From positions 1 to 55,546 of the forward strand of contig NZ_JANYMP010000047.1 in assembly GCF_025061645.1 (NCBI RefSeq): a stretch of DNA of 55,546 nucleotides, read 5' to 3'. Positions 1,976-12,393 of this stretch are shown piece after piece (the first letter of the stretch is position 1; each line of letters starts with the position of its first letter). Source of the stretch: Umezawaea endophytica (GTDB lineage: Bacteria > Actinomycetota > Actinomycetes > Mycobacteriales > Pseudonocardiaceae). The translations under genes and the position numbers were made by a program. The notes under the pieces are model-generated. The model did not search any database. It was not told where the DNA came from and saw nothing but the letters and a program-made list of their open reading frames with translations.

Positions 1976-2160
1976 GGCAGGGTTCCTCGTTCCGTGCGGA
2001 AGGCAGCCGGTCAGGATCGGCTGAGGCGTGGTGGCGACCTTGCGTTACCGGGTTCAGGTGTCGGCTGGCATAGTCGAGGTGTCCGGCATCACGCCTTATT
2101 TCAAGATGTGATTTAACCCAGGTGACCTTGGGACGTCAAGGCTTGGTTAAGGGAGCGACA
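1976..2160. promoter_or_regulatory. Divergent promoter region between GH30 and ROK genes
   Basis: This spacer must hold both divergent promoters and probably a ROK operator. It includes an AT-richer patch around 2096-2118 (TTATTTCAAGATGTGATTTA) in otherwise GC-rich DNA. That is the kind of site ROK repressors of the NagC/XylR class bind. The exact operator is inferred, not read. Confidence 0.4.
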
Positions 2161-3378
2161 GTGCAGCGGAGCAAGCGGACGATGCGCGACTTGAGGACGA
2201 GCAACCGCGCCCGCGTGTTGCGCAGGCTGTACTTCGACGGCCAGTTCAGCCGCCACGAGCTGGCAGGCGCGACCGGCCTCAGCCAGGCGTCGGTCAGCAA
2301 CGTCGTCGGCGAGCTGGTCGAGGACCAGGTCGTCGTCGAAGCGGGTCTGGTCGGCTCCGACGGCGGCAGGCCGCGGGTCCTCCTCCGCGTCAACCCGGAC
2401 CACGCCTGCGTCGTCGGCGTGGACGTCGGCGAAACCCACGTCCTGGTGGAGGTCTTCGACCTCACGCTGCGCAGGCTGGCCATGAGCACGTTCCAGATGG
2501 ACACCATCGCCAACCGCGGCGAGGCGGTCGTGGAACGCGTCCTCGCGGGCCTCGACCAGTGCGTGGAGGACAGCGGCGTGGACCCCGGCCGGATCCTCGG
2601 CGTGGGCGTCGGCGTTCCCGGTCTGGTCGAGCGCGGCTCGGAACTGCTGGTCCACGCCCAGACCGTCGGCTGGAACGGCGTCCCGCTGGAGCGGATGCTC
2701 CGGGCGGGCACCGACCTGCCGCTGTTCATCGACAACGGCGCCAACACCCTCGGCCAGGCCGAGATGTGGTTCGGCGCGGGCCGCGGCGCCCGCAACGCGG
2801 TCATCGCCCTCATCGGCTCGGGCGTCGGTGCCTCCGTCATCGCCGACGGCGTCCCGTACCGGGGAGCGTCCGGCGGCGCGGGCGAGTGGGGCCACACGAC
2901 CCTGTCGCTCGACGGCAGGCCCTGCCGCTGCGGCGCGCACGGCTGCCTGGAGGCCTACATCGGCGCCAAGGGAGTGCTGGGCCGCCACCGCGAAGCGGCG
3001 GGCCTGCCCCCGGAGATCGTCGACGAGGAGGTGGCCCTCCGCGAACTGCTGGCGGAGGACTCGCAGGCGGCCAGGGAGGTCCTCGAGGAAACCGCGCGCT
3101 ACGCCGGAGCGGGTATCGGCAACCTGATCAACCTGTTCAACCCGGAACGGGTGATAGTGGGCGGCTGGGCGGGCCTGATCCTCGGCGAACAACTGCTCCC
3201 CGCCATTCGCGAGGTGGCCGCCAAGCACGCCCTCCACCACCCCTACCAACAGGCGAAGATCAGCCTCTGCGAACTGGGCACCGAATCGGTGGCCATGGGC
3301 GCGGCCACCCTTCCGGTCGCCGAATTCCTCGGCGCGGGCGGCGTCCGCTCAGCCGCCCTCATGCGCCCGACCGGCTGA
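2161..3378 (+). CDS. ROK-family transcriptional regulator
   Basis: Residues ~10-70 form a winged HTH of the NagC/XylR type (FSRHELAGATGLSQASVSNVV). It is followed by the sugar-kinase-like ROK fold, with the phosphate-loop-like segment GVDVGETH and the zinc/ROK signature CRCGAHGCLEAY near residue 257. The frame is open from GTG 2122. GTG 2161 is preferred because AAGGGAG lies 5-6 nt upstream and the product then starts like other ROK repressors (405 aa). ROK repressors sense sugars or sugar phosphates released from polymers. Its divergent position suggests it controls the GH30 gene. The 3' end overlaps the convergent jetD remnant by 30 bp. Confidence 0.85.
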   Translation: MQRSKRTMRDLRTSNRARVLRRLYFDGQFSRHELAGATGLSQASVSNVVGELVEDQVVVEAGLVGSDGGRPRVLLRVNPDHACVVGVDVGETHVLVEVFDLTLRRLAMSTFQMDTIANRGEAVVERVLAGLDQCVEDSGVDPGRILGVGVGVPGLVERGSELLVHAQTVGWNGVPLERMLRAGTDLPLFIDNGANTLGQAEMWFGAGRGARNAVIALIGSGVGASVIADGVPYRGASGGAGEWGHTTLSLDGRPCRCGAHGCLEAYIGAKGVLGRHREAAGLPPEIVDEEVALRELLAEDSQAAREVLEETARYAGAGIGNLINLFNPERVIVGGWAGLILGEQLLPAIREVAAKHALHHPYQQAKISLCELGTESVAMGAATLPVAEFLGAGGVRSAALMRPTG

Positions 3379-3897
3379 CCGCCAGAGGTCGGCCTCGTCG
3401 GTGTCGGTCGGCACGTCCCGGTCGAGCGCCACGGCCCGGACGACGACCTTGCGCACCAGCGGCTCGTCGAGAGCGGCCGGCCACTCCCACGGCCGTCCGC
3501 TCAGCACGACCGCCAACACCGCGTCGGCCTTGGCCACCACGGCGTCGAACTCCGCCGCCGGCACCTCGTCGTACCGCCTGACCTGCGCGAGCCACCGCGA
3601 CCGCCACGCCATCTGCCCGGCAGGCCGCCCCACCGCCCGCCGGTGCACCTCCGCCAGGACGTCGAGGAGCGACGTGCCGTCCCGGCGGAGGTGCTCGTCC
3701 AGGCGCACCAGCGAAACCTGCCGTCGGGCGGGGAAGTCGACCGCCTTGTGCAGGACCAGCCCCACCGCCTCGGCGGTCGGCCGGTCCTCGACGCGGAAGC
3801 TGAACGCGGACCGCCCCGACTCCATCGTGTCGAGGGCCGACCGCCAGAACCCCTCCAGGGCCGGAACGGAGTAGCGGGCCCGCAGCTCGTCATCCAC
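3349..3897 (-). CDS. Truncated JetD-like protein (N-terminal domain only, DUF3323-like)
   Basis: The 182-residue product lies downstream of the jetABC genes on the same strand. Its sequence resembles the N-terminal domain of TIGR02679/JetD: an early Trp-rich helix (ALEGFWRSALDTME), a segment like the LxxLDxxLR motif (VSLVRLDEHLRRDG), and a C-terminal stretch (VPTDTDEADLWRSAG). In full-length JetD, as I recall the family, that last stretch lies just before the Toprim-like DUF2399 domain that carries the nuclease/topoisomerase VI-like chemistry. Here the reading frame stops there, and the ROK gene occupies the place where the catalytic half would be. Full JetD is about 380-420 aa. The start is GTG 3895-3897. 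It is separated from jetC by 526 bp, instead of being close-coupled. The family link is my alignment by eye; an unrelated small protein is the alternative. Confidence 0.55.
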   Translation of the reverse strand: MDDELRARYSVPALEGFWRSALDTMESGRSAFSFRVEDRPTAEAVGLVLHKAVDFPARRQVSLVRLDEHLRRDGTSLLDVLAEVHRRAVGRPAGQMAWRSRWLAQVRRYDEVPAAEFDAVVAKADAVLAVVLSGRPWEWPAALDEPLVRKVVVRAVALDRDVPTDTDEADLWRSAGRAHEGG

Positions 3898-4423
3898 CCG
3901 GCAAGCCTAACGACCGGACCGGCTCGGCCTCCCCGGCCGAAGAAAGGCGCGAACAATCACCACCGCACGACGACGATGATCGATCGCACTGGAAAATCAA
4001 CGGCCGCCGCGGCCGGGGTCGCCGTTTTCTCCTTGCGGTGATCAACGAACTGGCCACCCCCACGACCGCCGGACCAATCGTTCCGGGGACAAGACCGCCA
4101 ATACCGACCGGTCTGCTCCGACAAACCCGGAACGTTCATCCGGGAAGCTGCCGGAGGCGTGTTCGGGCAGCCTTTGTTGATCATTGTTGACCCGCCTCCC
4201 GGCCTCGTGGTCAAGTCGACCACCAAGGTTGGAACGAGATTAGGGGCCGGTGTTCGTGCTGGTACCCGTGCCGACGGCGGCGGAAGCGTCTCGACGAAGA
4301 CGCTTCACCGCTACTGCGACAGGACATTCACATGTGTGATTTCCTCGACGGCCCACGACACCCGGAACGTTTTCGTGCGCGGATCTCCTCGTGCTCCACG
4401 ACCGTGAAGCACGGCGGCTACCG
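3898..4423. other. 526-bp non-coding gap between jetC and the jetD remnant
   Basis: No convincing gene lies here; the short frames lack ribosome sites and family motifs. The base composition is patchy and less GC-biased than the neighbours (for example around 3950-4010 and 4160-4190). It contains short inverted repeats, including CCCGGAACGTTCATCCGGG near 4115-4135 and the terminator-like hairpin at 4283-4306. It probably replaces or separates an ancestral jetC-jetD junction. Confidence 0.5.
4283..4306 (-). terminator. Probable jetC transcription terminator
   Basis: A 9-bp perfect stem (GAAGCGTCT / AGACGCTTC) with a 6-nt loop lies about 120 nt downstream of the jetC stop. There is no U-tract, which is common in actinobacteria. 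If real, it ends the jetABC transcript before the jetD remnant. Confidence 0.5.
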
Positions 4424-7400
4424 CTACGGGTCGACCCGGTCCAAAGCCGCCCCGTCCCAGGTCGTCTGGGTGCAGGCGACGCCGCGGCCGTTGCGGGGAC
4501 GCAGGACGTCGTAGATGTGCATCCTGGGGATCTTGTCGGAAACGCCCCAGCCGCTGGGCCAGGTGATGACCCAGTCCATGTCGAGGTCGACGAGCAGCCC
4601 CAGCATGCGGGCGATCGTCGGGTCGTCCAGGCGTTCGAACGCCTCGTCCAGCAGCACCAGCCGAAGCGGGTCGAACGACTCGGCGCCGCTGCTGACCGCG
4701 TCGTAGAACGACGCCGCCGCGGCGAACAGGGTCACGTACGAGATGAGCCTGGTCTCGCCGGACGAGAGCTGCTTCAAGCGCCGTTCCCGCGGGTTCCCGT
4801 CCGGCCCGGTGTCGCCGACGGTCACGGTGAACTGGTGCCACGTGCGGTAGTCCAACGCCCGTGACAGGACCTCGGCGTAGTTGCCCGAGTCGGCGTCGCG
4901 CTCGGTCTCGATCCGCTCGGTGAACACCCGCCGCAGGGCCTCGTCCTGCTCCGGCGTCCGGTTCGCGAACGGCTCCCGCACCAGCGCCAGCGCTCCGCGC
5001 GTCTCCTCGTCCAGCGCGGACGACGGCTTCCACGACAGCTTCACGTGCACGCCCTGGCTGGACCGCGCCTTGCCGAGCACGTCGTTCATCCGCTTGCACA
5101 GGTCCTCGGCCACGGCGACCTGCCCGCGCAGCCACTCGGCGAGGTCGCGGATCAGGTAGTCCGCGAACACGCCCTGGTACTGCTCGTTGAGGAACCCGCG
5201 CTGGTCGGCCAGCTTCGCCGTCACCTGCCGGGCCGCGACGGCCACCGGCCGGGTGCCCTCCTCGCCGGTCACGGTCACCGTGAGCAGGCCCGCGTGCTGT
5301 TCGGCGGCGATGTCGTGGCTGCCCGCCAGCGACGTCTGCAACGCCTGGAGCTTGGTGATCACCGTGGCCTCGCCCGCGCCGCGGCGGTCGCCCTCCGCCG
5401 TGATGGCCTCCCGGACCGCGTCCAGGTCGCCGTCCACGTCCGGCAGCGCCGCCACCAGGACGCCCGGCGCCGCCACGGTCGCCCCGAACTGCTCGGCGAC
5501 CCTGGTCTGCTCGGCCGTCGCGCCCGCCAGTTGCTCACGGGCGCCGTCGAGCTGCGCTTCGAGCTTCGCCGCCTGCTCACGGGCCGACGCGACCTGCTCG
5601 CGCGTCGACCTGAGGTCTTCGCGGTACTTCCGCCGCGAAGACTCCAGCGAGCTGAGCTGGCCCGCGATCTCGCGCGCCTCGCCGCCGATCGCCTCGGTCA
5701 GCTCGGCCAGCGTCGTGGCCTGCGTCGCGTGGTCCACGCACCGGCTCTCGGCGTCCGCTTCGGCCGCCGCCCTGTCCTCGCCCGCCGCGTGGAACCGGTG
5801 GGTCGCGTCGGTCAGGTCCGCCACGGCGCCCTGGCACTGCCTCCGCAGCAGGTCGCCCAGCCGGTCCGCGGTCCGCTGCGCCTCGCCCGCGGCCTGCTGC
5901 GACTGCCGCAGGCCCTCGGTCTCCGCGGGCAGCCCGGCCTCGCCCGCCTGCCGCACCAGCTCACCGCGCACGGCCTCACCGCGGGCCTGCGCCTCGTCCA
6001 GCTCGGCCCGCAGCTCCCGCGCCCTGGTCTCGGCGCGGTCGGCCGACTCGCGCGCGGCCTGTTCACGGCTGTGCTTGGCGATCAGATCGCCGTCGGACGG
6101 GAACCCGGCCAGGTGGGACTCCCAGCGGGTCACCCGGTCCCGCGCGCCCGCCAGCTCGCCCTCGGCCACGCCCAGCTCACCGCGCAGCTCGGTCAGCTCG
6201 TCCTCCAGCACCCCGATCCGGCGCCGCCGCGCGGACTCGCGTGCTCCCGCGCCGATGAACTCCGCGGCGGGCTTGCGCCACGTCCCGCCGAGCACACCTG
6301 CCCGCCAACGGCCGTCGGTCGACAGCGCCAGCCCGCTCCCGGCGTCCAGCGACACCGCCGCGAGCAGCCCCGCGACCACCTCGGCCGACACCACCGACCC
6401 CGGCTCCACGGCCGGGACCAGCACCGACGCCAACGACGGCCCGGCAACGGCGTCCCGCGGGGTCGCGGTCACGTCGTCGGCCACCGACCCGTCGCCGGTC
6501 ACCCACGCGTCCAGCAGCCCGCTCGCCTGGAGCGCCGACTCGAGCCCCGCCCGCCCGGCCTCGTCCACGGTCGGCTGGAAGTCGACAAGTCGGTAGAACG
6601 GCGTCCCCGCCAGCGGATCGCGCGAAGCCGATGCGTAACGACCCGGCTCCGGCACCCGTTCCCCACCCGACCGCAGCCCGGCCAGCTCGGCGTCGAGCTG
6701 GCCGATCCGGCCGCGCAGGTCCTCCTGCCGCAGCACGAACGCCTGAGCCGCGTCGCGCGCCGCGCGGACCAGGGGAGCGGTCCACTCGCGGGCCGCTGCC
6801 GTCACGGTCCTCGCGACCTCCGGGTCGACGGCCTCCGGCAGCTCGAACGACTGGTTCGGCAGGCCGTCGGCCAGCGGCCCGGCACCGCACCAGCGCTCGA
6901 CCTCGGCCAGCCACGTCGCCGCGACCGCCGTCAGCTCCTGGCCCTCCTGGTGGCGCAGCGCCGCCGCCTCGGTCGCGGCGACCTGGGCGTCCTTCGCCTT
7001 CTGCCGCACCGCGTCCACCTGCCGCTGCTCGCGGTCCAGCTCCCCGGCCCGCTGGTGCAGCGCGAGCGCCAGCGCGCCGCGCTGCCGGGCCGTGGATGCG
7101 ATCCCCGACGTCGCCGCCGCGGCTGCCTCCAACCCGGCCAGCACGGTGTCCGTCGCCGCCGTCGGCGGCACGCGCCGCTCGGTCGGCAGCGGTTCCGCCT
7201 CGGGGTCCGGCTTCGCCCGCACGAGGTGGGTGGTCACGGTCGCCTCGGCGTGCGGGACCCTCGGCACGACCGGCGCCGCTGACGAGTCCAGCCCCGCCGC
7301 GCGCAACTGCTGGCGCAGCGGCTCGGTCAGCTCGTCCGCCGACCCCAGCTCCTCCTGGAGCCGCCGCAGCGACCGCAGCACGGCGTCGACCGCGCCGTCC

Positions 7401-8488
7401 TCCTGGAGGCGCTGCTTGCTCGCCATCTCCAGCGCGGCGATGGCCGACGACCGCTTCTCCGCCACCAGCTTCTCGCGGGTTTGCAGGTCCTGGAGGTCGC
7501 GGAACGCGGGCAGCTCCTTGAGCGCCGCGATCGTCTCCTCCGCCTGGCCCTCACCGGTCTCCAACGCCGACTGGGCGCTCTCCGCCTCGGCGCGCGACGA
7601 CCGCGTCCGCTCCAGCTCGCCCTCCAGCCGGGAGCAGGCGCGCGCCAGCTTCCGCACCGCGTCCTCGGCGCCGCGCAGCCGCTCCGCCGACGAGCGCAGC
7701 CCGCCGAACGCGTAGTCGGAGTACGTCTTGAGGAACGTGCCGAGCGCGGCGTCCGCCGACGACAGCCGGGTGATGTTCTCCCGGATCGACTCCAGGTCGT
7801 CGAACGACGTCGCCAACTGCTCGACCATCGACTGGTCCAGCGGCGGCAGCGCGTCGGACAGGATCTGCTCCAACTGCCCTTCGAGCACCTTCAGGCCGAC
7901 GTCCGGGTTCCGCAGCGTGCGCTGGAGGTGCAGCAGGTCGCCGTACCGGGCCGCGGGGACGCCGTACACCGTCTCGGCGATCTTCGCGCGGAACGCGGCG
8001 TCCTCCAGCACGCAGTCCGCGCCGATCGCCTCCCGCAGGTGCGCCGGACCGAGCGGGATCCGCTCGTGGCCCGCGAGCTGGAGGTCGCGCCCGACGCGCG
8101 CGGACGTGATGAACCGCCACGAGTCGGTGATCGCCTGCGACGTCTTGGACGCCTTCACCCCGAGCCCGCAGGTCAGGAACTCCTCGACGCCGTCGACGAC
8201 CCGGCGCAGCTCGATCCACGCGTAGCCGATCCGGTTCGGGCCGCCGTTGTAGTCGTCCAGCATCAGCCGCCGCAGGCTGACCGTGTCGAAGCCCTTCGAG
8301 CCGACCTGCCGCAGGTCGCCGTCCAGGCACAGCGGCAGCAGCAGCTCCAGCGTTCGCGACTTGCCGGACCCGTTGGTGCCCTGGAAGATCGCCCGCCCGC
8401 CGGAGAAGTCGAACGTCTGCTCGGTGTACTGCCACACGTTGACGATGCCGCCGCGGTGCAGCCGCCACCTGTCCCGCTCCAGCGTCAC
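4424..8488 (-). CDS. jetC: Wadjet JetC: SMC/MukB-like ATPase (TIGR02680 type)
   Basis: The 1354-residue product begins with an SMC head: RWRLHRGGIVNVWQYTEQTF, then Walker A GTNGSGKS at residues 37-44. A long coiled-coil region with a hinge-like interruption around residues 600-800 follows. The C-terminal head half has an ABC signature LSSGETRLISY near 1243 and Walker B LVLLDEAFERLDD near 1283. In Wadjet (JetABCD), JetC dimers with JetA kleisin and JetB extrude DNA loops from small circular DNA, which JetD then cleaves. The frame is open far upstream, but GTG 8486-8488 overlaps the jetB stop (GTGA) and yields the family N-terminus. All ATPase motifs look intact, so the motor is probably functional even though jetD is truncated. 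Confidence 0.88.
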   Translation of the reverse strand: MTLERDRWRLHRGGIVNVWQYTEQTFDFSGGRAIFQGTNGSGKSRTLELLLPLCLDGDLRQVGSKGFDTVSLRRLMLDDYNGGPNRIGYAWIELRRVVDGVEEFLTCGLGVKASKTSQAITDSWRFITSARVGRDLQLAGHERIPLGPAHLREAIGADCVLEDAAFRAKIAETVYGVPAARYGDLLHLQRTLRNPDVGLKVLEGQLEQILSDALPPLDQSMVEQLATSFDDLESIRENITRLSSADAALGTFLKTYSDYAFGGLRSSAERLRGAEDAVRKLARACSRLEGELERTRSSRAEAESAQSALETGEGQAEETIAALKELPAFRDLQDLQTREKLVAEKRSSAIAALEMASKQRLQEDGAVDAVLRSLRRLQEELGSADELTEPLRQQLRAAGLDSSAAPVVPRVPHAEATVTTHLVRAKPDPEAEPLPTERRVPPTAATDTVLAGLEAAAAATSGIASTARQRGALALALHQRAGELDREQRQVDAVRQKAKDAQVAATEAAALRHQEGQELTAVAATWLAEVERWCGAGPLADGLPNQSFELPEAVDPEVARTVTAAAREWTAPLVRAARDAAQAFVLRQEDLRGRIGQLDAELAGLRSGGERVPEPGRYASASRDPLAGTPFYRLVDFQPTVDEAGRAGLESALQASGLLDAWVTGDGSVADDVTATPRDAVAGPSLASVLVPAVEPGSVVSAEVVAGLLAAVSLDAGSGLALSTDGRWRAGVLGGTWRKPAAEFIGAGARESARRRRIGVLEDELTELRGELGVAEGELAGARDRVTRWESHLAGFPSDGDLIAKHSREQAARESADRAETRARELRAELDEAQARGEAVRGELVRQAGEAGLPAETEGLRQSQQAAGEAQRTADRLGDLLRRQCQGAVADLTDATHRFHAAGEDRAAAEADAESRCVDHATQATTLAELTEAIGGEAREIAGQLSSLESSRRKYREDLRSTREQVASAREQAAKLEAQLDGAREQLAGATAEQTRVAEQFGATVAAPGVLVAALPDVDGDLDAVREAITAEGDRRGAGEATVITKLQALQTSLAGSHDIAAEQHAGLLTVTVTGEEGTRPVAVAARQVTAKLADQRGFLNEQYQGVFADYLIRDLAEWLRGQVAVAEDLCKRMNDVLGKARSSQGVHVKLSWKPSSALDEETRGALALVREPFANRTPEQDEALRRVFTERIETERDADSGNYAEVLSRALDYRTWHQFTVTVGDTGPDGNPRERRLKQLSSGETRLISYVTLFAAAASFYDAVSSGAESFDPLRLVLLDEAFERLDDPTIARMLGLLVDLDMDWVITWPSGWGVSDKIPRMHIYDVLRPRNGRGVACTQTTWDGAALDRVDP

Positions 8489-9699
8489 GACACGGTCTCC
8501 TCGTCGAACAACGACCAGCTCGGTTCTCCGGGCTCGATCGGGGTGGGGGTGACGACCTCGCGCTCGGGGTCGCCGTCGGGTTCGGGTATCCACCGGTGCG
8601 CGGCCGGGTTCAGCAGCCAGCCGTCCTCGCCCGCGACGGCCAACCCCATGCGGCGCAACAGCTCCGTCACCTCGGTGACGAGCTTGTCCTGGTCTTCGAC
8701 GATCTGCTTCGACCACGCCGCCGGGTAGTCCTCGACCAGCCGGTCGAGCACCTCGCGCAACCGCGCGGTCGACACGAGGTGACGGCCGTCCGCGCGGGTG
8801 ATCGGCTCGTCTTCGGCGTCGTACTCCAGCTCCAGCAGCGTGGGCAGCGCCAGTAGCGCGAGCCGCGCGACCGTGGAGGAACCGGGGAAGTACATGTCCG
8901 TCAGGTAGTCCTCGGGGTCCGCCGCCAGCACGCCCTCCAGGCGCGACTCGGTGTACAGCCCGAAGCACTTCTCCAGCAGCACGGACTCCTTGCGCTGGTT
9001 GCGCCGCAACCAGTCCGCCTGCTCCGGCGGCAGGTCGGCGTACAGCACCAGCGGCGTCTCCACGAGCCTGCGCCGCACCGCGTGCTCGACGCCGCGCGGC
9101 CCCGGCCGGGCCGCCAGCGCCACCAGCCGCTCCGGCGAGTCCGCCTCGGCGACCGGCCCGGTCAGTAGCTGCCCGAGCAGGTCCGTGTCGATCGTGATCA
9201 GCGCCTCGGTCTGGAGGTCCGCGCCCACCTGGCCCTCGGTCTCGTGCAGCACGCCCAGCGACACCAGGTGCCGCAGCGCCGCCGTCAGCGCCCGCCGGTC
9301 GACCACGTCGTCCACCACGTCGATCCCGGCCTCGACGGCGGCGGCCCGCACGTCCGACACCAGGCGGGACAGCAGCGCCTGCCGCCCGACCCCGGTCAGC
9401 ACGCCCAGCGTCAGCGCCAGGTACGCGTACCCGCGCGGCGACATCCCCGGCACGCCGCGGGTGTCGTCCACGCCGGGCCCGGACTTGTACAGCCGCGCGA
9501 ACCGCCGCTCCACCACCAGCCGGTAGCCGAGCAGCCCGGCGAACAGGTCCTGCAACGCGAACCGGTGCCGGTACACCAGCGCCAGCAGTTCCCCGTCCGG
9601 CCCGTCGCCGCGCAGCAGCGGCCTGCGCAGCAGCGTGCGCGCGCAGCGCACGACGTTCGCCGCGTCGATGTCCGGGAGGTCGTCCAGCGGGGTGCTCAC
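8485..9699 (-). CDS. jetB: Wadjet JetB: KITE-type SMC accessory protein (TIGR02678 type)
   Basis: The 404-residue product has the TIGR02678 pattern: an ARTLLRRPLL segment, then GYRLVVERRFARLYKSGP, then YAYLALTLGVL. Winged-helix repeats of the KITE class follow. JetB binds the JetA kleisin and the SMC heads. I chose GTG 9697-9699, preceded by GGAGGAGCGA, over the ATG 36 nt upstream, because of this ribosome site. The 3' end overlaps jetC by GTGA, so the two are translationally coupled. Upstream coupling to jetA has been lost through the 152-bp spacer described separately. Confidence 0.85.
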   Translation of the reverse strand: MSTPLDDLPDIDAANVVRCARTLLRRPLLRGDGPDGELLALVYRHRFALQDLFAGLLGYRLVVERRFARLYKSGPGVDDTRGVPGMSPRGYAYLALTLGVLTGVGRQALLSRLVSDVRAAAVEAGIDVVDDVVDRRALTAALRHLVSLGVLHETEGQVGADLQTEALITIDTDLLGQLLTGPVAEADSPERLVALAARPGPRGVEHAVRRRLVETPLVLYADLPPEQADWLRRNQRKESVLLEKCFGLYTESRLEGVLAADPEDYLTDMYFPGSSTVARLALLALPTLLELEYDAEDEPITRADGRHLVSTARLREVLDRLVEDYPAAWSKQIVEDQDKLVTEVTELLRRMGLAVAGEDGWLLNPAAHRWIPEPDGDPEREVVTPTPIEPGEPSWSLFDEETVS

Positions 9700-9857
9700 T
9701 CGCTCCTCCGGGGTGCCGGGGTCTGGCCGGCGCATTCGACCTCGTGGGGCCGCAGGGCTGGTCGGGTGTGGTCGCCTGGTGCGCCCTCGCCGAGGACCGG
9801 TCGTGCCGCAGGGCCGCCGGTCGTCGAACGCCGCGCGTCGGGGGTGCTCACTCGCTC
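9689..9857. repeat. 17-bp direct repeat bounding a 152-bp insertion between jetA and jetB
   Basis: The 17-mer GGGGTGCTCACTCGCTC occurs exactly at 9689-9705 and 9841-9857. Read on the gene strand it is GAGCGAGTGAGCACCCC, which contains the jetA stop in one copy and the jetB GTG start in the other. An undivided copy would give the normal GTGA stop/start overlap, as seen at jetB/jetC. The 135 bp between copies has no open reading frame of note. Near its edges are imperfectly inverted motifs (GCATTCGAC near 9733 and GTCGAACGC near 9823). Tandem duplication or a small non-autonomous insertion could explain it. Confidence 0.7.
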
Positions 9858-11347
9858 AACGCCAGCCGCGCGTCGTGCAGGGTCAACGTCCCCGCCTTCG
9901 AGGTGATCCTGGTGGTCTCGCCCGGCGAGTGGTCGACGGTGACGCGCAGGCCGCGCACCGGGTCGGCGGCCGAACCGGAGTCGGCCGCGCTCTCCCGCTG
10001 CGCCATCGCCAGCGTCAGCAGCTCGCACAGCACGCCCAGCGCGTCGCCGGACAGCGTCGTCGACGCCAGCCGCGGCGCGGCCGACGCCAGCTCGGCCACC
10101 GACGCGGCCCGGTGCTCGTCCGCCTCGCGGGCCGCCGCCAGCAGCGACTGCTCGGTGATCGGGTCGTCCAGGATGCGCGACGTCCGCCCGCGCGCGCCCC
10201 GGTCGCCCCGGCTGCGGACGCTGACCGTCACGTCCCGCACCGGCCCGTCGCGCCACGCCGTCCGCTCGTTGTCGCTGTCGTGCTCCGGCGCGGGCAGCAC
10301 GTGCCGCGCCGAGTAGAGACCGAACGCCGCCGCGTACAGCTCGTGGCCCTGCGCGCGGGTGCCGGAGTCGAACCACGCCGCCAGCTTCAGCAGCTCCGCG
10401 CGCCGCCCCGGCAGCAGGCCGCCGCCGGAGGTCGCGCGCTTCACCGACGCCAGCAGCGACCCGATGGCCCGCGCGGTCGCCTCGCGCAGCGCCGTCACCT
10501 GGCTCGGGTGGCCGGGGCGGTCGACGAACCAGCCCGCCAGCTCCTGCCAGTCCGCCGCGGACCGGCCCCGCGCCCGTTCGACCTCGACGCCGAGCCCGTC
10601 CGTGGCGCCGAGCAGCCGCAGCAGCTCGCCACGCCCCCGCGCCAGGCCCGCCAGCGCGTCCGCGATGGCCGGGGTGTGCCGCAGCACGTCCTCCACGACC
10701 ATCTGGATGTACTCGACCAGCAGGTTCCGGAACCCGGAGATCTCCTCGGGCGCCAGGTGGTGCCGCGTCACGACCTGCCCGAGGTACGCGTAGAAGTCAC
10801 GCACCGTGGCCGCCAGCTCGGCGTGCTGGAGGAAGACCGTCGTCACCCGTTCGGCCAGCACCTCGCGGGACCGCCTGCCCTCGCCCGTCACCAGCGCCTC
10901 GGACAGCGCGCCGCCCAGCTCGCTCAGCCCGCGCTCGATCGCGGGCAGCAGCTCCCGCGACACCTCGCGCGCGCCCTCCGGCACCCGGAGGAGCTGGTCG
11001 ACGTCCCGCTGGACGCGCACCGCGAGCTTGCTCACCTGGTAGCGGACGCTGCCGTGCTGGAACTCGGCGATGCTCGTCGCGACGACCTCGCGACGGCCCT
11101 GCACGAGGTTGCCCCACTCCACGAGCTGCTTGAGCCTGTTGATCACGTTCTCGATCCGGGACTCTCCCGCGTCCACGGTGCCCAGCCGCTCCGCCCCCGC
11201 GAGGGCGCCTGCGACCTCCCCGGCGGGCAGGTCGGCGAGCAGGGTGGACGTGAACAGGCGCATGATCGCCAGGTACGTGCGCTGGTAGTCGCGCGCGTCC
11301 AGGTACGCGTAGAGCTTCAACCGGCCCGCTGGTTCCACGGTCGGCAC
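9848..11347 (-). CDS. jetA: Wadjet JetA: kleisin-like subunit (TIGR02677 type)
   Basis: About 499 residues with the TIGR02677 pattern: LKLYAYLDARDYQRTYLAIMRLFT at the N-terminus, LVEWGNL and a VATSIAEFQHGSVRYQ segment, then a long helical middle and a C-terminal winged-helix-like part. JetA is the kleisin that bridges the two JetC heads and recruits JetB. GTG 11345-11347 is chosen because the family core starts just after it. Upstream in-frame GTGs at 11360-11362 and 11366-11368 are possible, and none has a strong ribosome site. It is the first gene of the operon and is divergent from cobD across ~107 bp. Confidence 0.83.
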   Translation of the reverse strand: MPTVEPAGRLKLYAYLDARDYQRTYLAIMRLFTSTLLADLPAGEVAGALAGAERLGTVDAGESRIENVINRLKQLVEWGNLVQGRREVVATSIAEFQHGSVRYQVSKLAVRVQRDVDQLLRVPEGAREVSRELLPAIERGLSELGGALSEALVTGEGRRSREVLAERVTTVFLQHAELAATVRDFYAYLGQVVTRHHLAPEEISGFRNLLVEYIQMVVEDVLRHTPAIADALAGLARGRGELLRLLGATDGLGVEVERARGRSAADWQELAGWFVDRPGHPSQVTALREATARAIGSLLASVKRATSGGGLLPGRRAELLKLAAWFDSGTRAQGHELYAAAFGLYSARHVLPAPEHDSDNERTAWRDGPVRDVTVSVRSRGDRGARGRTSRILDDPITEQSLLAAAREADEHRAASVAELASAAPRLASTTLSGDALGVLCELLTLAMAQRESAADSGSAADPVRGLRVTVDHSPGETTRITSKAGTLTLHDARLALSE

Positions 11348-11454
11348 CCTAACGCCGGCCACCGACACCCCCGGACATCGGGAACCGCGCCCCTAGCTCG
11401 AACGGGTGACAGCCGACGCTATACGGTGCCGTGTCGACTTCGGGGAGGTCTGCC

Positions 11455-12393
11455 TTGGGCGTGGGACGAGCGGCCGGATTGTTGCTGGGAGTAGCGGCGG
11501 ACGCGGTCTTCGGCGACCCCCGGAGACACCACCCGGTGGCGTTCTTCGGCCGTGCCGCGGATGTGACCGAACGGACCACGTACCGCGACAGCCGCACCGC
11601 GGGCGTCCAGCACACGGCGCTGCTCGCGGGCGGCGTCGTGGCGTTGGGCGTGGTCGTCGAGCGGCTGAGCGGTCGCAGCGAGCTGCTGAAGACCGTCACC
11701 ACGGCCGCCGCGACCTGGGTCGTCCTCGGTGGGGCCTCGCTCGCCAAGGAGGGCACGGCGATGGGCCGTGAGCTCGACGGCGGCGACCTGGCCGCCGCGC
11801 GCGACCGGCTGCCGAACCTGTGCGGCCGCGAGCCCGCCTCGCTGGACACGCTCGCGCTGGCCAAGGCCACCGTCGAGTCCGTCGCCGAGAACACCTCCGA
11901 CGCCGTCGTCGCGCCGCTGCTGTGGGGCGCGGTCGCGGGCGTGCCCGGCCTGCTGGCGTACCGCGCGGTCAACACCCTGGACGCGATGATCGGCCACAGG
12001 TCACCTCGCTACCTGCGCTTCGGCTGGGCCGCCGCCAAGCTCGACGACCTCGCCAACCTCGTCCCGGCCCGCGCCGCGGCACTGCTCACCGTCGTCGCCG
12101 CCCCCGTCGTCGGCGGCTCGGCCGCTGAGGCGTGGGAGGTGTGGCGGCGCGATGCGTCGGCGCACCCCAGCCCCAACGCGGGCCAGGTGGAAGCCGCGTT
12201 CGCGGGCGCGCTGGAGATCCGGCTCGGCGGGCGCACGGTCTACTCCTACGGAGCCGAGGACCGCGCCGTCATGGGGCACGGCCGCAACCCCGACGCCGGG
12301 CACGTGACCAGGGCCGTCGAGCTGTCCAGGGTGGTAGGCGGGCTGTCGGCGGTGCTAGCCGCGGCCCTGGCGCTGTTCGCCCGCCGCCGCTAG
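11455..12393 (+). CDS. cobD: Adenosylcobinamide-phosphate synthase CobD/CbiB
   Basis: The 312-residue integral membrane enzyme attaches aminopropanol (or its phosphate) to adenosylcobyric acid in cobalamin synthesis. Family hallmarks are GVAADAVFGDPRRHHPVAFFGR at the N-terminus, ATVESVAENTSDAVVAPLLWGAVAGVPG, and YRAVNTLDAMIGHRSPRY in the middle. Several hydrophobic helices are present, including one at the C-terminus. TTG 11455 is preferred over GTG 11431 because GGGGAGG lies 6 nt upstream. M. tuberculosis has the homologue Rv2236c in the same neighbourhood. No cobalamin riboswitch fits in the short upstream spacer. The 3' end overlaps convergent SURF1 by 39 bp. Confidence 0.9.
   Translation: MGVGRAAGLLLGVAADAVFGDPRRHHPVAFFGRAADVTERTTYRDSRTAGVQHTALLAGGVVALGVVVERLSGRSELLKTVTTAAATWVVLGGASLAKEGTAMGRELDGGDLAAARDRLPNLCGREPASLDTLALAKATVESVAENTSDAVVAPLLWGAVAGVPGLLAYRAVNTLDAMIGHRSPRYLRFGWAAAKLDDLANLVPARAAALLTVVAAPVVGGSAAEAWEVWRRDASAHPSPNAGQVEAAFAGALEIRLGGRTVYSYGAEDRAVMGHGRNPDAGHVTRAVELSRVVGGLSAVLAAALALFARRR

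Follow-up and report, generated by a model that had tools for sequence, protein, structure and literature searches.

In Wadjet systems, the roles of DNA sensor and motor are assigned to JetABC and that of the cutter to JetD, and all four subunits were required for plasmid restriction in Bacillus subtilis, although most research so far concerns type I, according to the accessible part of the review PMC10586767. The same part of the review proposes that the chromosome-organising complexes MksBEF and MukBEF derive from Wadjet-like defence, MksBEF through the loss of JetD (PMC10586767). Here, a type II Wadjet locus was analysed on a stretch of 55,546 nucleotides from Umezawaea endophytica (contig NZ_JANYMP010000047.1, the whole of which is called the window below), in which jetA, jetB and jetC are accompanied by a gene for the N-terminal arm of JetD without its nuclease domain. 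We estimate at roughly 0.55 the probability that this locus has turned into a nuclease-free structural maintenance of chromosomes (SMC) complex, which would keep the arm as a docking or regulatory subunit. Loci that keep the motor without a catalytic JetD are spread over the family (Pseudonocardiaceae) and are not peculiar to the window genome.

The JetD arm and the motor genes of the window

The arm gene and the promoter-like motif in front of it are as follows.
3349 to 3897, minus strand: arm-only jetD, a complete N-terminal (CAP-like) arm without the Toprim nuclease, 182 amino acids (aa), GTG start.
3904 to 3909, minus strand: -10-like hexamer TAGGCT, 6 nt upstream of the GTG of the arm gene, a leaderless-type promoter motif.

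An earlier reading of the same DNA, made from its letters without database searches (the sequence-only reading), had taken the 182-aa product for a JetD arm that stops before the Toprim domain. The product alone matched no Pfam or PADLOC family, and its sole NCBIfam match was irrelevant (E 0.076). A profile of five full-length JetDs of the family, not including the 182-aa product, matched it at 1.4e-13, and the alignment covered positions 3-100 and 124-222 of the 419 positions of JetD; the score was 50.4 bits, against 15.6 bits for the top-scoring of 1000 shuffles. In an alignment of 31 arms, the window arm covered the full length apart from an internal gap of about 27 residues, and it ended at the last conserved (C-terminal) motif of the arm. 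The C-terminal half of JetD had no match within the window locus, indicating that no Toprim remnant is left there. The N-terminal arm of a type II JetD was thus found and the Toprim (DUF2399) nuclease domain was not, in agreement with the earlier assignment.

The arm gene was located at the same place in all three genomes of the genus. The ratio of nonsynonymous to synonymous substitution rates (omega) of the window arm was 0.39 and 0.34 against its two genus relatives and 0.34-0.39 across the three genus pairs, with an upper 95% limit of at most 0.57 and none of 1000 bootstraps at or above 1; canonical JetD arms, for comparison, gave 0.40-0.44. A chance frame unrelated to JetD would fit the lack of a relevant Pfam, NCBIfam or PADLOC match by the product itself, but the profile match, the full-arm alignment, the shuffles, the purifying selection and the shared position in the genus leave it a negligible probability, and it was rejected.

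The spacing between the hexamer and the GTG is of a kind that is taken as leaderless transcription in actinobacteria. In the two other genus members the TAGGCT-type motif was absent and AGGAGG or GGAGG preceded the arm start instead, and a sigma-70 scan detected no promoter before the arm gene.

The remaining features of the locus are the motor genes, the intergenic hairpin and the two flanks.
9848 to 11368, minus strand: jetA, type II, DUF2397, kleisin; open reading frame of 506 aa, homologues of which start near residue 9.
8485 to 9735, minus strand: jetB, type II, DUF2398, KITE; 416 aa.
4424 to 8488, minus strand: jetC, SMC-like ATPase of about 1354 aa; start set by alignment, overlapping jetB by 4 bases.
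4001 to 4015, minus strand: terminator-like hairpin, about 410 bases past jetC and about 100 before the arm gene.
2122 to 3378, plus strand: gene of a ROK-family regulator, the convergent flank (PF00480, 1e-52).
11431 to 12393, plus strand: cbiB, divergent from jetA (PRK01209, 1.6e-138), which marks the syntenic site across the family.

By family membership and ATPase motifs, the window carries a complete type II Wadjet motor, as had been proposed. Profile searches of the window proteins matched the jetA product with PF09660 (5.6e-120) and JetA2 (2.7e-198), and with TIGR02677 at 7.3e-42 (143.7 bits, under the curated cut-off of 165.85). The jetB product matched PF09661 (7.6e-93), JetB2 (3.2e-115) and TIGR02678 (7.1e-35; 120.8 bits, just under the curated cut-off of 124.65). 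The jetC product matched TIGR02680 above its cut-off (1.3e-219) and JetC2 with 1243 bits, and its best JetC1 match was only 4.3e-19, which makes it a JetC2/TIGR02680 protein. Its Walker A (GTNGSGKS), signature (QLSSGE) and Walker B (VLLDEAF) motifs were intact.

The four genes probably do not form one operon, given the gap of 526 bases between jetC and the arm gene, the terminator-like hairpin and the separate promoter motif before the arm. Three terminator-like sites were found over both strands against 0.4 expected from shuffles. Both the hairpin downstream of jetC and the convergent ROK gene next to the arm end had been pointed out before; the ROK gene overlaps the final 30 bases of the arm gene and also flanks the locus in both other genus members and in many loci of Saccharothrix/Actinosynnema.

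A complete type II jetD elsewhere in the genome was not found. TIGR02679 gave no match (13 of 13 first-look candidates scored), and since the canonical JetDs of L050 and L045 score above its cut-off, this miss is informative. An 18-row Toprim profile likewise gave no match among the 64 of 188 first-look candidates that were scored, and the same search gave 3e-72 to 4e-68 in the positive-control genomes G119, G012 and G144. The window genome does contain a complete Wadjet of type I as a system of its own (JetA1, JetB1, JetC1 and JetD1; L182, contig 13, about 173.8-180.6 kb), the JetD of which belongs to a different family from type II JetD, and it also encodes a normal Smc. Another member of the genus with an arm-only locus, G022, carries two more TIGR02680 JetC genes with a Toprim JetD near each (L180, L181, L270); accessory systems thus coexist with the nuclease-free locus in that genome.

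JetD states and motor retention across the family

JetA of the type II kind (JetA at 1e-80) was detected in 154 of the 390 family genomes searched, in 27 of 46 genera. The locus was read in 147 of them. The seven others were G188, G299 and G093, where it lies at a contig edge, and G038, G046, G079 and G281, which had no listed coordinates; L041 and L046, both without jetA, were fetched outside the 147. The genera named here are g1 (the window's genus, which includes Umezawaea tangerina), g32 (U. beigongshangensis), g22 (Saccharothrix/Actinosynnema, below the Saccharothrix genus), g8 (Lentzea), g25 (Saccharopolyspora), g45 (Actinokineospora), g20 (Kutzneria), g27 (Kibdelosporangium and relatives), g17 (Crossiella), g34 (Allokutzneria), g2 (Streptoalloteichus) and g11 (Longimycelium). 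The divergent cbiB adjoined jetA in 140 of the 147 loci, the seven without a cbiB match being five of genus g31, L113 and L155.

The state of jetD was counted for 145 loci, as L086 and L162 were cut by the contig end. A catalytic JetD (Toprim Glu and Asp-x-Asp) was present in 36 loci from 8 of 26 genera, and an altered one in 40, comprising 35 of full or near full length that had another residue for the Glu, alone or together with the second Asp, and 5 with Gln for Glu. Six of the others encoded only the arm and three an arm-TIR fusion, and 60 lacked jetD. The arm-only state was found in all three members of the window's genus, in both of Streptoalloteichus and in the one of Longimycelium, that is, in three genera on two branches of the tree. 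All 22 Lentzea JetDs read lacked the Glu and had Asp-x-Thr or Asp-x-Ser for Asp-x-Asp. A Toprim-profile match was missing in 23 of 60 genomes, and JetC was present in all 60. Four genomes of genus g38 (L175-L178) have Gln for the JetD Glu, and the other Toprim motifs looked at are intact there. L088 (G298) was assigned to the altered state by hand from two fragments; its JetD is also split in two frames, and the short jetC frames of L088 and L104 (G291) reflect either real decay or assembly errors. In L046 (G035), a canonical-looking JetD directly adjoins cbiB with no jetABC in the 19 kb read, a reverse loss that left a cutter without a motor.

The term 'altered' depends on which residues are catalytic. 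The type I JetD of the window genome aligned with JetD(E248A) of structure 8q72 at the VENK/VANE position, and the CEN motif of type II is the counterpart, by position, of the type I JetD Glu. A direct sequence link to the solved JetDs failed, as the type II Toprim profile matched none of them, and a weak profile match (probability 1.2%) aligned the Asp-x-Asp region only. In MksG, E236 and D279 are described as Mg-binding (accessible part of PMC10123090). We infer that the Glu is catalytic in type II JetD and that the altered JetDs are 'catalytically dead', a term that comes from conserved motifs because the Glu is linked through the type I JetD/8q72 alignment and the weak Asp-x-Asp match.

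JetD also occurs as a separate unit. Wherever a Lentzea jetD lay more than 50 bases from jetC, a TAnnnT hexamer was found 5-8 bases before its start codon (17 of 17 loci, L088 not counted). The motif was absent from the four coupled Lentzea loci, from all 11 uncoupled canonical JetDs of Saccharopolyspora and from all 4 of Actinokineospora; it also precedes the three arm-TIR genes and, by inspection, eight orphan JetDs. These orphans, of about 334 aa and of the Lentzea kind (Glu lost, Asp-x-Thr), were found in eight genomes of the Saccharothrix genus (L041, L263-L269), far from JetC or on another contig, and the cbiB site of these genomes has no Toprim JetD (seven have no jetD there and one has a TIR fusion). 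They are 80-81% identical to the nearest Lentzea JetDs and 88-97% to the L041 copy, and in the JetD tree they stand beside 20 of the 21 Lentzea JetDs. They have no common gene within 6.5 kb, and the shared DNA extends no more than about 190 bases, often less than 40, beyond the gene. Close copies were found in none of the plasmid, phage and viral-contig collections searched. Plasmid or phage cargo was accordingly rejected as their origin: the matches on 14 plasmids were remote, all below 60% identity (most annotated as TIGR02679 or DUF2399), and there was no phage match and no confirmed viral contig.

Three Saccharothrix-genus genomes have an arm-TIR fusion gene downstream of jetC. The L061 fusion matched the arm at 7.4e-26 and, in its TIR part, PDC-S66 at 1.7e-46 and ThsB at 1e-29; the L054 fusion matched the arm at 5.4e-27 and TIR at 3.2e-45; the L056 fusion was seen in translation and matches the fusion profile over its full length. 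A WTKQE motif of the fusions fits what we take to be the position of the catalytic Glu of TIR domains. A fourth arm-TIR frame, broken inside TIR, was found in the Saccharopolyspora genus (L017, G090), away from the jetABC site and in a genome with a canonical JetD at the cbiB site. With at most 5 candidates scored per genome, the fusion was matched over its full length in at least 3 of the 386 genomes of the family; of the 324 plasmids with a match, none covered 80% of it, and the window genome gave no match to it at E 1e-20. An order-wide search for the arm returned 68 of 397 genomes.

A tree of joined JetA, JetB and JetC with 143 tips (L086, L088, L104 and L162 left out) grouped the window's genus with U. 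beigongshangensis (support 0.957), the 363-aa JetD of which has already lost the Glu. The next closest groups are Lentzea and the Saccharothrix genus, the order among the three being unsupported (0.264). In a clade of 64 tips that includes the window (support 1.0), none of the 64 has a catalytic JetD at the site. The tree requires 15 losses of the catalytic JetD if it was never regained (midpoint root), or 8 changes if gains are allowed. Because the nearest full-length JetDs, those of U. beigongshangensis, of Lentzea and the orphans of the Saccharothrix genus, are without the Glu, parsimony would place the death of the blade before its deletion, and the truncation in the window would most simply have removed an already inactive domain. 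The word 'amputated', which the sequence-only reading had used for this JetD, is therefore misleading as history.

The motor is retained irrespective of the jetD state. Among 146 jetC frames, Walker A was found in 144 (143 GTNGSGKS and 1 GANGSGKS), the signature in 144 and Walker B in 143. Furthermore, every genome of the Saccharothrix genus (25 of 25) and of Lentzea (24 of 24) has jetA, and a catalytic jetD was seen in none of the 24 and 22 readable loci of these genera, respectively. Median omega values of jetA, jetB and jetC (Nei-Gojobori, at most 12 random pairs per genus) were 0.07-0.33 in all 14 genera tested, and both extremes came from genera without jetD at the site, the lowest from g34 and g27 (0.07-0.10) and the highest from g31 (0.28-0.33). 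In the window's genus, the medians were 0.087 for jetA, 0.242 for jetB and 0.199 for jetC, so that this dN/dS check, together with the arm values above, shows purifying selection on all four genes. The median column entropy differed by no more than 0.08 bit between sampled loci with jetD (20) and without it (29-30), at most 3-4 loci being taken per genus. A scan of JetABC in 15-residue windows for a JetD-docking surface that loses constraint after the loss of JetD gave nothing convincing, the strongest z being about 3. In Lentzea, omega was 0.21 for the altered Toprim and 0.20 for the arm, against 0.32 and 0.38 for the two canonical Toprim groups compared. Since the altered domain is as constrained as the arm, and more than those canonical Toprims, the comparison points to a function that it may still keep.

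Weighing of the explanations

Under the reading of a nuclease-free complex, the locus would have been inherited vertically as a type II Wadjet, and its Toprim domain would first have lost the catalytic residues and then have been deleted in the window's genus. JetABC, a working motor by sequence, is probably still able to load on DNA and extrude it, and the arm would be left as a separately expressed subunit that may bind the motor. The complex would not cut DNA but compact or organise it, be it the chromosome or large replicons, or else silence it; the likeliest output appears to be extrusion or compaction with no cleavage, since the motor is intact and the genome yielded no cutter of its type. 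Several observations weigh against this reading. The window arm seems to evolve fast, because it is only 57-59% identical to those of its two genus relatives, which are 75% identical to each other, while JetA is 94-97% identical. The arm is not always needed, since 60 of the 145 loci retain jetABC without any arm. The jetC frames of L088 and L104 are short (509 and 838 aa), that of L105 has no Walker B match, and that of L168, in a locus with a canonical JetD, has no Walker A match. Finally, with Smc and a type I Wadjet also present, the host has no obvious condensin vacancy.

The main rival is an effector in trans, with which the arm and JetABC would still defend the cell, the arm being a modular adaptor to exchangeable enzymes (Toprim, TIR or a separate partner). 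The arm-TIR frames at the locus in three Saccharothrix-genus genomes, with the broken fourth of the Saccharopolyspora genus, and the full-length altered JetDs kept far from any JetC in eight Saccharothrix-genus genomes would fit it, as would the diverse effectors of Lamassu, TIR included, that the accessible part of PMC10586767 describes. It is nevertheless unlikely, as no enzyme gene was seen adjoining the window arm, full-span arm-TIR genes were matched in so few family genomes at up to 5 candidates scored in each, and the 60 loci just mentioned have no TIR fusion at the site either. The sequence-only reading had left the choice between decay and a nuclease-free complex; of the two, selection, retention and motif evidence favours the complex with a retained arm and disfavours decay. 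Degeneration after the loss of the nuclease would explain the poorly conserved arm and the short or motif-altered jetC genes of L088, L104, L105 and L168, but is improbable when motor motifs are intact in nearly all loci, jetA is kept throughout two genera, omega is well below 1 and jetABC survives across the 64-tip clade that has no catalytic JetD. Lower still do we rank the proposal of an inhibitor or decoy role, in which the arm and the orphan altered JetDs would fill the JetD site of an active Wadjet and protect the cell or a mobile element. Orphans that are 88-97% identical to one of their number, with their own promoter motif and without shared neighbours, are what is expected of single mobile genes; against this, the collections searched held no close copy, the jetABC next to the window arm comes with no active JetD that could be inhibited, and the genome's type I JetD belongs to another family.

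The arm-TIR fusions suggest a broader proposal, which we put forward tentatively and rate below the nuclease-free complex: the JetD arm may be a plug-in adaptor of type II Wadjet that links JetABC, as the part that senses or extrudes DNA, to an exchangeable output. It would carry a Toprim in Saccharopolyspora, a TIR in some of the Saccharothrix genus and a dead structural Toprim in Lentzea; in Umezawaea it would carry no enzyme, and extrusion would be the output. If so, the family would be a natural series from a defence system to a chromosome-handling SMC complex, with one branch re-armed with another weapon.

Comparison with known systems

That JetD can be lost has been proposed before; what appears to be new are the intermediates that survive, the arm-only and altered JetDs that remain under selection, and the fusions of the arm with TIR. 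Among the titles and abstract openings of the open-licence PMC literature, no paper on nuclease-free type II Wadjet loci or JetD-TIR fusions was found. One family shows at one syntenic site the catalytic nuclease, the altered one, the arm only, the absence of the nuclease and its replacement by TIR. Because these steps stand side by side, the change from defence to housekeeping becomes testable in cultured soil actinomycetes.

Compared with type II Wadjet (JetABCD: DUF2397/DUF2398/TIGR02680/DUF2399), the window locus is alike in its JetA, JetB and JetC families, gene order and JetD arm homology, but it has no Toprim nuclease and its arm gene lies 526 bases off jetC with its own promoter motif; no cutting would be expected from the subunits seen. 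EptABCD and MksBEFG of actinobacteria resemble it as actinobacterial SMC plasmid-restriction systems, and EptABCD presumably retains its fourth subunit. MksBEFG retains the MksG nuclease and acts in plasmid defence, as stated in the accessible part of PMC10123090, whereas the window locus has no nuclease. MksBEF of Pseudomonas aeruginosa is likewise an SMC-kleisin-KITE complex without the JetD/MksG nuclease. It is termed MukBEF-like in the accessible part of PMC10586767, while the window JetABC is still typical of type II, intermediates of the loss survive in relatives and the JetD arm is kept. The 'MksBEF-like' of the sequence-only reading therefore holds for the composition (SMC, kleisin and KITE with no nuclease gene alongside) and not for the MksB/MukB sequence branch, as JetC is a JetC2/TIGR02680 protein. 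Lamassu, which combines an SMC-like sensor with diverse effector domains including TIR (accessible part of PMC10586767), differs in its proteins (LmuB with LmuA and LmuC) and the window locus itself has no effector domain; the resemblance is to the arm-TIR fusions of its relatives, which suggest that Wadjet, as Lamassu, may be able to change its effector.

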